Assembly: GCF_000419525.1 (NCBI RefSeq)
Contig: NZ_ATTE01000001.1
Location: forward strand, 2,996,501-3,060,500
DNA length: 64,000 bases
Direction of reading: 5' to 3'
Origin: Leucothrix mucor DSM 2157
GTDB taxonomy: Bacteria; Pseudomonadota; Gammaproteobacteria; Thiotrichales; Thiotrichaceae
Of this stretch, positions 19,977 through 29,070 are shown one piece after another. Numbering within the stretch: position 1 is the first letter of the stretch; each line of letters opens with the position of its first letter. The translations under genes and the position numbers were made by a program. The notes under the pieces are model-generated. The model did not search any database, was not told the DNA's origin, and worked only from the letters and a program-made list of their open reading frames with translations.

Positions 19977-20723
19977 ATGCAAACCGCTACGTCACTCATC
20001 AATGCCACCGGCTTAAAACGCTATTACGGAAAACAAGCTGCTGTTAGTAGCGTCGATATCCAACTGCAACGCGGCGAGATATTAGGACTGCTTGGCCCCA
20101 ATGGCGCAGGCAAGTCGACGATTTTGCAAATGCTGACGGGTACGCTGGCGACTCACGCTGGCGATATTCAAATTAATGGCATTGATCTAAAAGAGCAGCC
20201 ACTGCAGGCCCGCAAGCAAATCGGCTACTTACCTGAGAACCCTCCACTGTATCGGGATATGACGATTCAGGAGTACTTGAAGTACTGTGCGAAGTTGCAT
20301 GGCTTAAGTGGCACGGAACTCAAAACTGCCGTGGACTGGGCGATTGAGCACTGCGATCTGGAAACCATGAAACGCCGTCTGATCTCCAACTTATCAAAAG
20401 GCTACCAGCAGCGTGTTGGAATTGCCCAAGCCATTTTGCATAAACCGCCGCTCATTATTTTAGATGAACCTACGGTTGGATTGGACCCTGTACAGCTGGC
20501 ACAAATTCGCCAATTGATTCGAGAGCTTGGCGAGCAGCATGGCATTATCCTATCCACCCATATTTTGCAGGAAGTGGATGCAGTGTGTGATCGCGCTCAG
20601 ATTATTAATCATGGCCAAACCGTGCTGGATGAAACACTGGCCTCGCTGAAGTCACGTGATCAATCATTAGAGCAGTTCTTTAATCACCAACTGACCGGAG
20701 CCATCGATGCAAGTCATGTTTAA
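19977..20723 (+). CDS. ABC transporter ATP-binding protein, GldA/NosF type
   Basis: This 248-residue ATPase has Walker A GPNGAGKST near residue 42, the signature LSKGYQQRVGIAQ and Walker B LIILDEPTVGLD. The 'S-K-G-Y-x-Q-R' signature and the two partner genes place it with GldA-like exporters linked to ABC-2 permeases and GldG proteins. In Bacteroidetes that trio supports gliding; in proteobacteria the substrate is unknown. The next gene begins within its last codons (17-base overlap), so the operon is tightly coupled. Confidence 0.88.
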   Translation: MQTATSLINATGLKRYYGKQAAVSSVDIQLQRGEILGLLGPNGAGKSTILQMLTGTLATHAGDIQINGIDLKEQPLQARKQIGYLPENPPLYRDMTIQEYLKYCAKLHGLSGTELKTAVDWAIEHCDLETMKRRLISNLSKGYQQRVGIAQAILHKPPLIILDEPTVGLDPVQLAQIRQLIRELGEQHGIILSTHILQEVDAVCDRAQIINHGQTVLDETLASLKSRDQSLEQFFNHQLTGAIDASHV

Positions 20724-21465
20724 TATCGGACTGAGCGAGTTTCAGCGCTTATTCCGCACGCCACTGGCTTGGGTGTTACTGGCAGTACTGCAATTGATAT
20801 TGGGCTACTTGTTTTTAGTGCAGGTTGAGAATTACCTTAGCGTTATTCAACCCAAGATCATTGCTAGCCAAGCGCCTTATGGCGTTACGGATTTAGTGCT
20901 TAATCAGCTATTTACCTATGCTGGTATTCTGATGTTGGTGATTATGCCGCTGCTGACAATGCGCAGTTTTGCAGAAGAGCGCCAAAACAATACGCTGACC
21001 TTGTTACGCGCCGCCCCGATTTCATCCACCCAAATAGTAATGGGTAAGTTTCTAGCACTGGAATTACTGATTCTGTGCCTGATTGGCATGATTAGTTTAA
21101 TGCCATTGTCATTATTACTGGGGACTGCACTGGATATTGGGCAACTCTCAAGTGCAATCCTCGGGCTATTTTTACTACTGAGCTCGTTTGCGGCTGCGGG
21201 GATCTTTTTATCGTCATTGACCAAGCATCCGATGTTAGCTGCCCTACTCGGCTTTGCATTATTGCTAATTCTCGCATTGCTCTATCTGGCGGGTACCCGC
21301 ACCGGACAAAGCAGCGCGCTATTGGTCTACCTGTCTCACTTTGGGCATTACCTAAATTTTTTAAATGGCGTAATTGATAGCCGCGATGTGCTGTATTACG
21401 TGCTGTTTATTGCCGGATTTCTTGCACTAACCATCCGCAAGCTAGATAACGAGAGGTTGGGCTAA
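20707..21465 (+). CDS. ABC-2 type permease, GldF-like
   Basis: This 252-residue membrane protein has about six predicted helices and the ABC-2 hallmark region RSFAEERQNNTLTLLRAAPISSTQIVMGKFLA. GGAG lies six bases upstream of the ATG at 20707, supporting that start over the ATG at 20716. It should pair with the upstream ATPase. The next gene is a GldG-type protein, three bases downstream. The substrate is unknown. Confidence 0.85.
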   Translation: MQVMFNIGLSEFQRLFRTPLAWVLLAVLQLILGYLFLVQVENYLSVIQPKIIASQAPYGVTDLVLNQLFTYAGILMLVIMPLLTMRSFAEERQNNTLTLLRAAPISSTQIVMGKFLALELLILCLIGMISLMPLSLLLGTALDIGQLSSAILGLFLLLSSFAAAGIFLSSLTKHPMLAALLGFALLLILALLYLAGTRTGQSSALLVYLSHFGHYLNFLNGVIDSRDVLYYVLFIAGFLALTIRKLDNERLG

Positions 21466-21468
21466 GCG

Positions 21469-22830
21469 ATGACTACCAAACAAACCGCCGCCAGACATCT
21501 CAGTCAACTGGTCTTTTACATACTGCTGATTTGCGTGATTGGTTTAGCTGCATGGCTAAGCACCCGTTACTCACAAACTATTGATTTGTCATTCGGGCAA
21601 CGCAATACGCTGACCGAGCCAACGCAGCAACTCCTTAAGTCACTGGATGAGCCAGTTAATTTCATCGCTTATTTGTCCGATGATAAAACTGAGCTACAGG
21701 CAGGAATGCGCAAGCTGGTTGCTAAATATCAGCAGTTTAAACCTGATACCACGCTGGAAATTATTGACCCTAACCTAAACCCTGTCAGAGCTAAGGCAGA
21801 TAATGTGTTATCCGAAGGTCGCGTACTGATACAGCTAGGCGACCGCAGTGAGAAGCTAAGTTCGGTCGATGAAAGCACGGTCGCCAATACATTACAGCGC
21901 TTACTCAGAAATGTAGTGCCTCGCATTATCGTGCTGGAAGGCCACCAAGAACGCTCTCCTTTTGATGACACCAGTAGCGGCTTGAGCAAACTACGTGAGC
22001 GCTTAGCGGATCGCGGCTTTCGCTTACAGCCACATGCCATCTTAAAAACGCAATCCATTCCGGATGACAGTAGTTTTGTATTGATTGCATCGCCACGAAC
22101 ACCCTACCTGCCAACAGAAGCAGAAGTGATTAAGCAGTATCTGAAAGATGGTGGCAATCTATTATGGCTTACCGAACCAGATACGCTAGCGGGTTTAGAA
22201 CCTGTTTTAGAGCAGCTGGGCTTGAGAACACTTAAAGGTACGCTATTGGATGGCAACCAAGCTCTGCAGGATATGCTGGGCATTAAGCACCCTGCGGTAA
22301 TTCCGGTGATTCAATATGAACATCCCTTACTTAAGGATATGCAATCCCCAACCCTATTCCCATTTACCGGGGTGATAGAGGTAAACCCTGAGACAATCAC
22401 CAACTGGCAATATAGCCCGATGCTAATAACGGGTGAATCCAGCTGGTTGGAAAGTGGCGAGCTTACCGGAGAAGTCACCCCAGACTATGCCGCTGGTGAT
22501 AAACCTGGGCCATTGAGTATTGGTATGAGCTTGAGCCGCGAGGCTAATGATAAGCAACAGCGCGTGATTGTGCTGGGCGACAGCGACTTTATGCTGAATC
22601 AGTTTATTGGCGCAGGCAATGGCGGCAACCTTGAACTCAGTAATAAGCTGTTTGACTGGCTAAGCCAAAGTGATGATTTACTTAAAATTAAAACAGCTCG
22701 CGCTCCTGATACCGAGCTGAAGATGCCGGGTAACAGCCTGAATATTCTAGCAATAGTGTTTTTATTCGGACTGCCATTATTGCTAGTGATTATTGGCACA
22801 ATTCGTTGGTGGATTCGCCGCAGACGCTAG
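21469..22830 (+). CDS. GldG-family ABC-associated membrane protein
   Basis: This 453-residue protein has an N-terminal membrane helix (about residues 15-32), a large periplasmic region with the GldG/ABC-type uncharacterised-transport-system pattern (LDEPVNFIAYLSDD, LIASPRTPYLPTEAEVIKQYLKDGG, VIVLGDSDFM) and a C-terminal helix followed by IRWWIRRRR. It resembles the periplasmic partner of GldF permeases. Together with the preceding two genes it forms a complete three-gene exporter. Confidence 0.85.
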   Translation: MTTKQTAARHLSQLVFYILLICVIGLAAWLSTRYSQTIDLSFGQRNTLTEPTQQLLKSLDEPVNFIAYLSDDKTELQAGMRKLVAKYQQFKPDTTLEIIDPNLNPVRAKADNVLSEGRVLIQLGDRSEKLSSVDESTVANTLQRLLRNVVPRIIVLEGHQERSPFDDTSSGLSKLRERLADRGFRLQPHAILKTQSIPDDSSFVLIASPRTPYLPTEAEVIKQYLKDGGNLLWLTEPDTLAGLEPVLEQLGLRTLKGTLLDGNQALQDMLGIKHPAVIPVIQYEHPLLKDMQSPTLFPFTGVIEVNPETITNWQYSPMLITGESSWLESGELTGEVTPDYAAGDKPGPLSIGMSLSREANDKQQRVIVLGDSDFMLNQFIGAGNGGNLELSNKLFDWLSQSDDLLKIKTARAPDTELKMPGNSLNILAIVFLFGLPLLLVIIGTIRWWIRRRR

Positions 22831-26466: not shown

Positions 26467-26477
26467 TCCGTAACACC

Positions 26478-26548
26478 CCATTTGTTTAAATGGAACAACG
26501 GCCGCTGCGTGATATCCATACTTTCTATGGTATTCATCCAGCGGCCGT
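26478..26548 (+). terminator. Two tandem hairpins after algR
   Basis: CCATTT-GTTT-AAATGG (26478-26493) is followed by a long stem, ACGGCCGCTG with CAGCGGCCGT (26498-26507 and 26539-26548), enclosing a small inner CCATA/TATGG hairpin. There is no run of T after it, so it may work with Rho, stabilise the 3' end, or separate algZR from the next pair. Confidence 0.5.
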
Positions 26549-26620
26549 ATTAGTATTCAGGCACATTGCAGGACACCCTGTAACCTTGCACATGCGTTAA
26601 AACAACAAGCACTGGCAGGC

Positions 26621-27694
26621 ATGAGTACTCAAAAAATATTAGTTAAAGAAGAGCAATTACGACACTACCTGAAGCTTCATGGCAGTAGCTGTATGAGCTA
26701 TTCGACATTGCAACCGGAGCTCCGACATTTTGTGCTTGATGGCATTGGCTACATTGCCTACCTCCCCTTCAAGCATCTATTCTGGAGCCCCAGAGGGCAT
26801 CGCATAGTCATTGGCAACCCAGTGTGTGCTCCTGAACATTACAAAACAATCCTTGAGGCCTTCTTCAAAGAAAAAAACAAAGCCATTTTTGTACACATTT
26901 CCGAATCATTGGGTGAAGTTTTAACAAATATCGGTTATCAGGTGAACGGATTTGGGATTGAAACCGACCTACTGTGCAATAATTTTGAGCTAGGCGGTAA
27001 AGCCCGCGCTAAACTCAGGCAATGGCGTAACAAATGTGAACGCGAAGGCGTTACAGTAGTCGAAAAACCAATAGATTCATTTGAGGATCAGGCAGTAGTC
27101 CGAGCGATAAGCCAAGCATGGCTTGATGATAAAGGCACTCGGGAATACGGCATTTTATCACGCCCATTTTCATACGAAGCAGAAGAAGATGTTCGAAACT
27201 TCTGGGCGTATCAAGATGGCAAACTGATTGCTATGGCAGTCTTCGACCCTATTTATAAGAGCGGCAAGGTAATTGGCTATTACCACAATGTCGACAGAAT
27301 ATTACCCAGCGCTCCAAATGGCTGCGGAGCATTTATGATTTTAGAAGCAATGAAAGTATTTCAGCAGGAAGACAAAGAGCTTATCTCACTGGGTATGTCT
27401 CCGCTGTTTATGATTCAATCCAGCCCGAAGCACAACAAAAACCAGAAAACCCAACGAATTCTTAAATACACCTATTCAAACCTGAATTACATTTATCCTT
27501 TTCAAGGTAATGCCAGTCATAAGCAAAAATTCGCGGGCCGTCAAAAGCAGGTTTATATTTCATCGACCGAAGGCAATAATCTCTGGGAAGTCCTGGTTTT
27601 ACTAAAATCACTGGGCGCGCTAGAAATTAATCTCGATACCCTGAAAATATTTGGTCACATCATTCGTAGAAGTATGACATTGGTAAAAAAATAA
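26621..27694 (+). CDS. DUF2156 / phosphatidylglycerol lysyltransferase-like GNAT protein
   Basis: This 357-residue cytoplasmic protein matches the C-terminal catalytic domain of MprF-type lipid aminoacyltransferases (DUF2156, dual GNAT fold) but has no membrane flippase domain. Family features are GIGYIAYLPFKHLFWSPRGHRIVIGNP near residue 45 and KARAKLRQWRNKCEREGV near 130. In MprF this domain transfers an amino acid from charged tRNA to lipid; soluble relatives use other acceptors or act in amide-linked lipid synthesis, so the substrate is open. It ends two bases before the P450 start, which strongly suggests co-translation and a shared pathway. Confidence 0.75.
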   Translation: MSTQKILVKEEQLRHYLKLHGSSCMSYSTLQPELRHFVLDGIGYIAYLPFKHLFWSPRGHRIVIGNPVCAPEHYKTILEAFFKEKNKAIFVHISESLGEVLTNIGYQVNGFGIETDLLCNNFELGGKARAKLRQWRNKCEREGVTVVEKPIDSFEDQAVVRAISQAWLDDKGTREYGILSRPFSYEAEEDVRNFWAYQDGKLIAMAVFDPIYKSGKVIGYYHNVDRILPSAPNGCGAFMILEAMKVFQQEDKELISLGMSPLFMIQSSPKHNKNQKTQRILKYTYSNLNYIYPFQGNASHKQKFAGRQKQVYISSTEGNNLWEVLVLLKSLGALEINLDTLKIFGHIIRRSMTLVKK

Positions 27695-27696
27695 TA

Positions 27697-29070
27697 ATGC
27701 CTCATTTCATTCCGCCCTATCCTGAGCGCCATACCACTAAGCCTTCCGCCATTAAGGCGATCTTACAGGCCCGCAATGACTTACTCTCAATCTGGACTGA
27801 AGACTCCTTCCGATTCGAATTTATGTCTCAGCAGATATTGAAGCAGAAGATCTTTATTGCAAATGACCCTCGGTTAGTCAAAGACGTTTTCGTGACTAAG
27901 CACCACATTTACGAAAAGAAAAGCCCGCAGATGAAACGCGCACTGGAGCCGTTACTTGGCGATGGGCTCTTTATTAGCGACGGTGACACCTGGGCATCTC
28001 ATAGACAGATACAAGTACCATTGTTTCATACTGGCTTTGTGCAGAATTACAGTAAAATAATGGTCTCGACCATTACTGAAGTTGCGGATGAGTGGGCCCA
28101 ACAAGGCAATGGTAGCACCATTGATGTATTGCCAGAAATGGGACGTTTAACAGCGGAGATTATCTCCAGAACTTTATTCGGCGAAAATCTTGGCAAGGAA
28201 AAAGCGGCGACTGTGGTTAAAGCCTTTGCACAATACCAATCAGTCATCAAACAAACCCCTCTGAGCAGCTTCACCAATATCCCAAGCTGGATGGATAAGC
28301 TGAGCATTAAAAGTCATATTGCTTTACGTGCGGCAAAACGCATTCATGCGGTAGTTGATGAAATCATTGATAAGGCAGAAGAAAAAGAAAACCAGAACAC
28401 ACTGGTTGCCCATTTACTAGCAGCCAACAAAGATCGTGATCAAAAGAACGCATTAAGCCGTGAGCAGATTCGCAATGAAATCATTGTATTGTTTATGGCG
28501 GGTCATGAAACAACGGCAAACTCTTTAGCTTGGTGCTGGTATTTACTGTCACAAGCGCCGGATGTTGAAGCAAAACTGCATGCGGAATTGGATGCAGTAC
28601 TGGGTGATCGCATGCCTAGCTTTGCTGATGTCGCTAACTTACCTTATACCCGCGCCATTTTTGATGAAACTGTCAGGCTCTATCCTCCGGTTCCAGTACT
28701 CTCAAGACAAGCTTCTGAAGATGATACGATTCGCAAAAAGCATATCCCAAAAGGCTCTTTAATGCTGGTTGTGCCGTGGCTATTACATCGCCATAAAAAC
28801 CTATGGGATGAGCCTGATGCCTTTATTCCTGAGCGCTTTCTCGCCGATGCACTCAGAAAAATCAACAAGTTCGCCTACCTGCCATTTAGTGCCGGGCCGC
28901 GCGTTTGCCCTGGTAAAAACTTTGGTTTAGTGGAATCAGTGCTATCTATAGCCATTCTGGCACAGCGCTTCCGCCTCAAATTACCCAAAGGCACTAAAGT
29001 CACCCATGAGTGCCGACTGACCCTGCGTCCTAAAGGCAACTTGCCTATGCAAATGGAATTCCGCAAGTAA
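27697..29070 (+). CDS. Cytochrome P450
   Basis: This 457-residue soluble P450 has no membrane anchor. The C-helix WASHR is near residue 99, the I-helix oxygen-activation motif AGHETTANSL near 267, the K-helix ETVR near 324, and the heme-thiolate motif FSAGPRVCPGKNFG has Cys404. The long-chain fatty-acid or isoprenoid hydroxylase look (PxxF-x-P-E-R-F as DAFIPERF) is suggestive only. No ferredoxin or reductase gene is adjacent, so electrons must come from elsewhere. It starts two bases after the DUF2156 stop codon. Confidence 0.92.
   Translation: MPHFIPPYPERHTTKPSAIKAILQARNDLLSIWTEDSFRFEFMSQQILKQKIFIANDPRLVKDVFVTKHHIYEKKSPQMKRALEPLLGDGLFISDGDTWASHRQIQVPLFHTGFVQNYSKIMVSTITEVADEWAQQGNGSTIDVLPEMGRLTAEIISRTLFGENLGKEKAATVVKAFAQYQSVIKQTPLSSFTNIPSWMDKLSIKSHIALRAAKRIHAVVDEIIDKAEEKENQNTLVAHLLAANKDRDQKNALSREQIRNEIIVLFMAGHETTANSLAWCWYLLSQAPDVEAKLHAELDAVLGDRMPSFADVANLPYTRAIFDETVRLYPPVPVLSRQASEDDTIRKKHIPKGSLMLVVPWLLHRHKNLWDEPDAFIPERFLADALRKINKFAYLPFSAGPRVCPGKNFGLVESVLSIAILAQRFRLKLPKGTKVTHECRLTLRPKGNLPMQMEFRK

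Follow-up and report, generated by a model that had tools for sequence, protein, structure and literature searches.

A stand-alone DUF2156 protein and a cytochrome P450 as possible tailoring enzymes in a lipid pathway with scattered genes in Thiotrichaceae

A DUF2156–P450 gene pair in Leucothrix mucor

In the genome of Leucothrix mucor DSM 2157 (labelled G000 here), a 64,000-nucleotide stretch of contig NZ_ATTE01000001.1 (positions 2,996,501 to 3,060,500, forward strand; the window in what follows) encodes a DUF2156 protein directly followed by a cytochrome P450. In the open reading frames (ORFs) of the window, two bases separate the DUF2156 stop from the P450 start. The two genes and their diagnostic residues, in window coordinates, are as follows.

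26621–27694, + strand: DUF2156/LPG_synthase_C protein, stand-alone, 357 aa, ATG start (Pfam 3.2e-43)
27110–27112, + strand: codon of S164, invariant in 29/29 aligned Thiotrichaceae homologues and aligned with S684 of Bacillus licheniformis L-PGS
27296–27298, + strand: codon of R226, kept in 27/29 (Q in L014 and L058) and aligned with R742 of Bacillus licheniformis L-PGS
27697–29070, + strand: cytochrome P450, 457 aa, ATG start (Pfam PF00067, 3e-89)
28906–28908, + strand: codon of the P450 haem-ligand Cys404, intact, as are the I-helix AGHETT and the ExxR motif (E324/R327)

The PF09924 LPG_synthase_C domain (formerly DUF2156) covers residues 19–313 of the first protein, and no second Pfam family was matched at 0.001. 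The NCBIfam MprF model scores 94.5 bits, below its cut-off of 600, and aligns over profile positions 570–835 of 841. The protein thus possesses the C-terminal synthase domain of MprF and, at 357 aa with PF09924 only, lacks the N-terminal membrane flippase domain, which bears out the original prediction of a stand-alone MprF-type C-terminal domain. In its AlphaFold model (predicted local distance difference test, pLDDT, 84.7), the protein superposes on the MprF soluble domain 6lv0 with a VIA-align Z of 30.6 at 2.8 Å over 307 residues. The nearest folds are all MprF synthase domains (Z 23–31); these are followed by the aminoacyl-tRNA-dependent peptide synthase Sbb17 (Z 19.9), the Bacteroides protein 2hqy (19.8) and FemX (~18), while the tandem GCN5-related N-acetyltransferases (GNATs) that use acyl-CoA reach 13.2 at most (mycothiol synthase). 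Sequence identity to solved MprF and aminoacyl-phosphatidylglycerol (PG) synthase members is ~18–20%; the DUF2156 profile matches PDB sequences that belong for the most part to aminoacyl-PG synthases, MprF and an aspartyl-tRNA synthetase (AspRS)–DUF2156 fusion. Counterparts of the ligand-pocket Ser and Arg of L-PGS are present in the family as S164 and R226, placed by profile alignment to 4v36 with numbering mapped as chain index + 515; S684 and R742 are named in describing the lysine-tRNA pocket in an excerpt of PMC11630815. Since the MprF, Sbb17 and FemX folds rank above the acyl-CoA GNATs, and since S164 and R226 align with the L-PGS pocket, a putative aminoacyl-tRNA-dependent aminoacyltransferase is the better guess for this protein.

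The DUF2156 protein could instead act as an N-acyltransferase, using acyl-CoA or acyl-ACP on a sphingoid base in the manner of a ceramide synthase, with the P450 then hydroxylating the ceramide. The tandem GNAT fold is common to acyl-CoA enzymes such as mycothiol synthase, and the Caulobacter sphingoid base is N-acylated by bCerS, as described in part of PMC11087976. Against this stand the aminoacyl-transferring character of most of the closest structures and matched PDB sequences, and the near-complete retention of the two pocket residues, so we consider N-acylation improbable. A second, more typical PF09924 protein is encoded elsewhere in the same genome (C1:3851395-3852252, 317.5 bits).

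PF00067 is the sole Pfam match of the P450, whose predicted structure has a pLDDT of 76.3. The sequences AGHETT, E324/R327 and Cys404, which we take to be the I-helix, ExxR and haem-ligand motifs, are invariant in 26/26 aligned homologues. Among proteins of solved structure, the P450 is most closely related to LUTEIN DEFICIENT 5 and carotene epsilon-monooxygenase, both presumably CYP97 types, and to CYP102 types and CYP4B1; the fatty-acid-hydroxylase look initially ascribed to this P450 is fair as a lead only. No redox partner occurs among the 10 annotated window genes, and no genome-wide search was made for one. In two genomes of g6, the genus with Thiothrix eikelboomii, small proteins of 103 and 85 aa follow the P450 (L086 gene 10 and L092 gene 12); the latter is Cys-rich by eye, and such proteins could bind iron or zinc.

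Shared presence outlasts linkage of the two genes

We scored both genes in 63 Thiotrichaceae genomes, among which g2, g3, g5, g6 and g8 denote genera of the family, and G003 (L. pacifica) and G006 belong to Leucothrix. Presence of DUF2156 required more than ~300 bits; fragments in G029 and G057 were admitted, and MprF-like matches of G025, G030 and G076 were left out. Presence of the P450 required at least 54% identity; a G005 fragment was admitted and a stop-interrupted copy in G026 was counted. The latter (L043, C143:37235-38601) lies in a genome where DUF2156, pieces of a polyketide synthase (PKS) and an alpha-oxoamine synthase (AOS) are present. A search with the DUF2156 protein turned up, as named relatives, Leucothrix arctica and L. 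pacifica along with seven Thiothrix or Thiotrichaceae records.

DUF2156 was present in 31 genomes and the P450 in 32; 28 genomes had both and 28 had neither, giving concordance in 56/63. Among the 46 good-quality genomes, 22 had both, none had DUF2156 alone, two (G018 and G058) had the P450 alone and 22 had neither (Fisher 3.5e-11, from counts that ignore shared ancestry). The pair is adjacent in 17 of the 28 genomes that have both (three Leucothrix, five g5, three g3 and six g8) and apart in 10 (G011, G022, G028, G033 and G070 of g6; G035; and G032, G059, G060 and G061 of g5); G057, which has only fragments, makes up the remainder. The joint presence of DUF2156 and P450 genes therefore outlasts their physical linkage. 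The spacing is 2, 0 and −4 nt in the three Leucothrix copies and ranges from overlaps up to 517 nt in adjacent pairs elsewhere (first-start-codon ORFs). The near-obligate coupling first proposed for the pair applies to the three Leucothrix copies and is not obligate across the family; separate occurrence in relatives, named at the outset as evidence against the proposal, is seen for linkage (10/28) and hardly for presence (56/63 concordant).

The two genes might be unrelated neighbours in a housekeeping region that co-occur by shared ancestry only. Upstream of the pair lie argH, a histidine kinase and a LytTR regulator, and downstream lie trpF, trpB, trpA, accD and folC (the last three by eye from translations); the flanks are thus largely housekeeping, and linkage is mostly within genera. 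The surroundings differ, however, among the four genera in which the genes adjoin, and the concordance in presence and absence includes the 10 genomes with the genes apart. We regard this explanation as very improbable, and the gene pair and a functional linkage between its two members as well supported.

A polyketide synthase–oxoamine synthase cluster and a proposed pathway

In g5, the gene after the pair encodes a ~2630-aa protein with KS, AT, DH, ER, KR and ACP domains by Pfam and a weak methyltransferase match; thioesterase gave no Pfam match. By this domain content the protein is a highly reducing (HR) type I PKS. A PKS member lies directly beside, or at most 1.4 kb from, one gene of the pair in 11/12 g5 genomes; that gene is the P450 in nine and DUF2156 in two (G060 and G061, where the P450 is elsewhere). 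The full order DUF2156–P450–PKS is found in five g5 genomes, and a small ORF intervenes between P450 and PKS in G032 and G059. The PKS homologue of G000 (C1:395625-403103) keeps the KS, AT, DH, ER, KR and ACP motif regions, and its methyltransferase site is eroded. Directly downstream of the PKS, in g5 and in G000, is an AOS of the aminotransferase class I/II, located in G000 as follows.

C1:394226-395578: AOS of G000, adjoining the PKS

The best solved match of this AOS is serine palmitoyltransferase 3a2b (6e-63), presumably from Sphingobacterium, with 8-amino-7-oxononanoate synthase/2-amino-3-ketobutyrate CoA ligase close behind (4e-61). The G000 PKS–AOS locus (C1:394226-403103), ~2.6 Mb from the window, also encodes a formyltransferase-like protein, a short-chain dehydrogenase/reductase (SDR), a sulfatase-superfamily protein and two Capsule_synth proteins. 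Thiothrix-group genomes, G006 and G035 share this arrangement.

With PKS presence set at ≥ ~47% identity (G068, at 41%, and weaker matches of G066, G012, G017 and G030 left out) and AOS presence at >500 bits (G068, at 46%, left out), the PKS was scored in 27/63 and the AOS in 25/63 Thiotrichaceae genomes; at most five PKS candidates were scored per genome, which makes PKS absence less certain than AOS absence. Across the good-quality genomes, 17 had both DUF2156 and AOS, five DUF2156 alone, one AOS alone and 23 neither. Within g2 (16 genomes), G035 alone has DUF2156, P450, PKS and AOS, at three separate places, and the other 15 have none of them at these thresholds; the G035 DUF2156 and P450 both group with G015 in trees (support 0.92 and 0.96), and its AOS does not.

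Taken together, these data lead us to infer that the pair acts on the PKS–AOS product. A HR iterative type I PKS would build a long acyl chain, which the adjacent AOS would release by condensing it with an amino acid (presumably serine) to give a 3-keto sphingoid base; the SDR would probably reduce the ketone. The P450 would hydroxylate the chain of this sphingoid or related long-chain amine, the DUF2156 protein would use aminoacyl-tRNA to attach an amino acid to the product at a hydroxyl or the amine, and a phosphoglycerol-type headgroup could come from the sulfatase-superfamily enzyme encoded beside the PKS. We place the probability that the pair supplies the tailoring enzymes, for aminoacyl transfer and hydroxylation, of such a genomically dispersed lipid pathway at roughly 0.45. 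That the pair belongs to a PKS–AOS long-chain amine pathway at all is held with moderate confidence, from genome context. The fully specified product, an aminoacylated, hydroxylated sphingoid lipid with a PKS/AOS base, a P450-installed hydroxyl and a tRNA-derived amino acid added by a stand-alone MprF-type enzyme, is tentative and, as a whole, rather doubtful. The joint lipid product first envisaged for the two genes is supported in part: the P450 accompanies DUF2156 in all 22 good-quality genomes that have the latter, which supports a shared lipid pathway; the results point away from an ordinary membrane phospholipid and toward a PKS-made sphingoid or long-chain amine, because the pair adjoins HR-PKS and AOS in g5 and the same cluster exists elsewhere in G000.

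Several observations weigh against this proposal. The pair occurs without PKS or AOS in L. pacifica (100% complete), and without a close PKS–AOS in six g8 genomes (G013, G029, G034 and G066, of good quality, G065, and G068, where an AOS at 46% and diverged pieces of the PKS are all that is present); the PKS–AOS product therefore cannot be the pair's only substrate. Conversely, G058, G063 and G005 have P450, PKS and AOS and no DUF2156 match (the G005 P450 being the fragment), and the Thiothrix-clade metagenome-assembled genomes G069, G071 and G073 have DUF2156 without the P450; at 67–81% completeness, their incompleteness may explain the latter. Mirror-tree distance correlations over all pairs are 0.84 for DUF2156–P450, 0.73 for DUF2156–AOS and 0.83 for P450–AOS, and fall to −0.07, 0.27 and 0.02, respectively, between genera; with no between-genus value above 0.27, they give no support beyond within-genus descent. 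Two further points arise outside the family, where AOS-bearing genomes have no pair and the best DUF2156 relative differs at S164, as given below.

These exceptions would be expected if the pair were a self-contained module modifying a general lipid or another long-chain amine, its association with PKS–AOS in some genera being secondary: g8 and L. pacifica retain the pair by itself, and MprF relatives act on PG or glucosyl-diacylglycerol, according to an excerpt of PMC11630815. This account sits poorly with g5, where both genes are linked to the PKS, separately and jointly, and with g2, whose sole pair-bearing genome also has PKS–AOS; we judge it unlikely, and retain tailoring of the PKS–AOS product as the preferred reading.

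Beyond the family, the DUF2156 profile at 1e-30 matched two genomes only in a 369-genome sample of the class, both Thiotrichaceae. AOS relatives at 1e-85 were found in 12 genomes of this sample, 10 of them outside Thiotrichaceae; in eight of the 10, the AOS has an HR-PKS homologue as its neighbour, and seven of those eight also have one or more genes for an SDR, a sulfatase-superfamily enzyme or a KpsC- or KpsS-like protein nearby. None of the 10 has a DUF2156 (1e-30) or P450 (1e-80) match, so the pair is dispensable for the core pathway. Judged by these matches, the pair is a Thiotrichaceae-specific addition to a wider cluster type within the sampled genomes. The P450 at 1e-80 occurs in seven non-family genomes of the 369, and no DUF2156 gene was found near it in four neighbourhoods (G180, G285, G319 and G148, the last a 3-kb contig). 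In G039, of another gammaproteobacterial family (L235, C19), a distant P450 (33%, 5.1e-48) lies ~7 kb from an AOS-like gene.

A 398-genome sample of the phylum gave DUF2156 matches at 1e-25 in 12 genomes, G000 included; in the samples searched, the subfamily thus appears rare outside Thiotrichaceae. The best outside match, in G471 of another gammaproteobacterial family (2.3e-101, 40% identity to the window protein), has Asn at the S164 position and keeps R226. Its gene shares an apparent operon with those for a PigE-like class III aminotransferase, two fatty-acid desaturases and a predicted metal-dependent hydrolase. A member of this DUF2156 subfamily thus turns up a second time next to enzymes that might form and oxidise a long-chain amine, a context that again suggests such a substrate. 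The neighbours in G550 and G585 (methyltransferase, nudC-like and murI-like by eye) gave no functional hint. Eight g375 matches scored ~1e-41 to 1e-47; the longest-ORF caller, unreliable in high-GC DNA, recovered DUF2156 in one of five g375 regions (G684, G468, G488, G535 and G608).

Other features were noted around these loci. In g5, a chorismate-lyase-like protein (Rv2949c-like, PF01947) follows the PKS–AOS–formyltransferase genes (L195:15208-15783, − strand, with look-alikes in L197-L199) and could mean that g5 uses an aromatic group as starter or substituent. Adjoining PKS–AOS in G000 is a two-domain Capsule_synth (KpsC-like) protein with a GT29 sialyltransferase-like region (L126:369-3434, − strand); KpsC/KpsS-like genes occur near some AOS–PKS loci in other families too, hinting at a capsule or glycolipid link. 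Genes for a GldA/GldF/GldG-like ABC transporter (window 19977-22830) are found close to the pair in Leucothrix and, in Thiothrix and G035, next to the PKS cluster. The transporter was nevertheless rejected as a pathway part: a gldG homologue is present in 58/63 Thiotrichaceae, including 26 of the 28 genomes with neither pair gene.

The intergenic region upstream of the pair contains one further feature.

26498–26556, + strand: hairpin (ACGGCCGCTG/CAGCGGCCGT stem) and conserved TATTAGTAT, located after the LytTR regulator gene and ahead of the DUF2156 gene

Region 26467–26620 folds with a z of −4.56, and 0/200 shuffles were as stable. The hairpin has 21 consensus pairs, eight of which show double-sided compensatory changes among three sequences from three Leucothrix species, and the TATTAGTAT that follows it is invariant in these species. 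The 14-base motif GGCCRTATTAGTAT was found in 11/272 fetched loci, all copies of the same site in the three Leucothrix species. Rfam gave one match, far below the cut-off of its family, and none that passed. The hairpin may act as a leader element, or it may terminate transcription of the regulator gene. Promoter- and terminator-like sites were not notable (two promoter-like against 5.1 in shuffles; four terminator-like against 2.7, sd 1.5).

Relation to known systems and implications

The closest precedent is the SgaABC pathway of Pseudomonas. As described in PMC12134224, an iterative PKS and an AOS of P. fluorescens MYb115 make C24–C28 sphinganines; SgaA and SgaB are required, the SDR SgaC is the proposed reductase, and phosphoglycerol sphingolipids are proposed from mass data. 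The Thiotrichaceae set shares a single-module iterative type I PKS, an adjoining AOS of serine-palmitoyltransferase type and an SDR, a likeness drawn from gene content; G000 itself has a single-module iterative-type PKS adjoining an AOS (domains by Pfam in the g5 homologue). A phosphoglycerol headgroup is proposed in Pseudomonas, and Thiotrichaceae encode a sulfatase-superfamily enzyme. In contrast, the Thiotrichaceae add DUF2156, P450 and formyltransferase-like genes, and their genes are often scattered; P450, Thiothrix and Leucothrix are absent from the main text of PMC12134224, and its sections 7 and 8 contain no DUF2156 step. The Thiotrichaceae set is best seen, by analogy, as a variant of the SgaABC pathway with two extra tailoring enzymes.

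Other systems resemble parts of the proposal. The DUF2156 protein shares with MprF the synthase-domain fold and two ligand-pocket residues, and differs in its missing flippase domain, its low identity and its linkage to P450 and PKS. The AspRS–DUF2156 fusion in PDB 9w9e, titled Aspartate--tRNA ligase and matched by the profile at 1.7e-7, is presumably ergosteryl-aspartate synthase, which would aminoacylate a non-phospholipid hydroxyl; it is a eukaryotic tRNA-synthetase fusion, whereas the Leucothrix DUF2156 is a separate bacterial protein. Fumonisin-type biosynthesis proceeds by PKS, AOS, ketoreductase, P450 and esterification, the same order of enzyme classes, likened here by class rather than sequence; the Thiotrichaceae pathway would differ in being bacterial and in using a DUF2156 protein as the transferase. 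In trans-AT PKS lines (Streptomyces atroolivaceus Q8GGP2), a DUF2156 domain occurs with polyketide assembly and a PLP enzyme, embedded there and stand-alone in Leucothrix, according to part of PMC3870968.

The open-licence literature, searched by title or abstract start, contained nothing on a DUF2156–P450/PKS–AOS pathway, and aminoacylated sphingoids did not come up there as a kind of sphingolipid modification. Lysine-ceramides have been found in the Black Sea, for which the authors hypothesise that serine palmitoyltransferase uses lysine (PMC11334938, in excerpt); the pathway proposed here would be a candidate route to amino-acid-bearing sphingolipids. If correct, it would mirror in bacteria the logic by which fungi make sphinganine analogues, here with genes spread around the chromosome, would add a new acceptor class for the DUF2156 family, and predicts sphingolipids in Leucothrix and Thiothrix. 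It would also show how phyletic co-occurrence can lead to a biosynthetic pathway even where the genes are unclustered in the organism studied.

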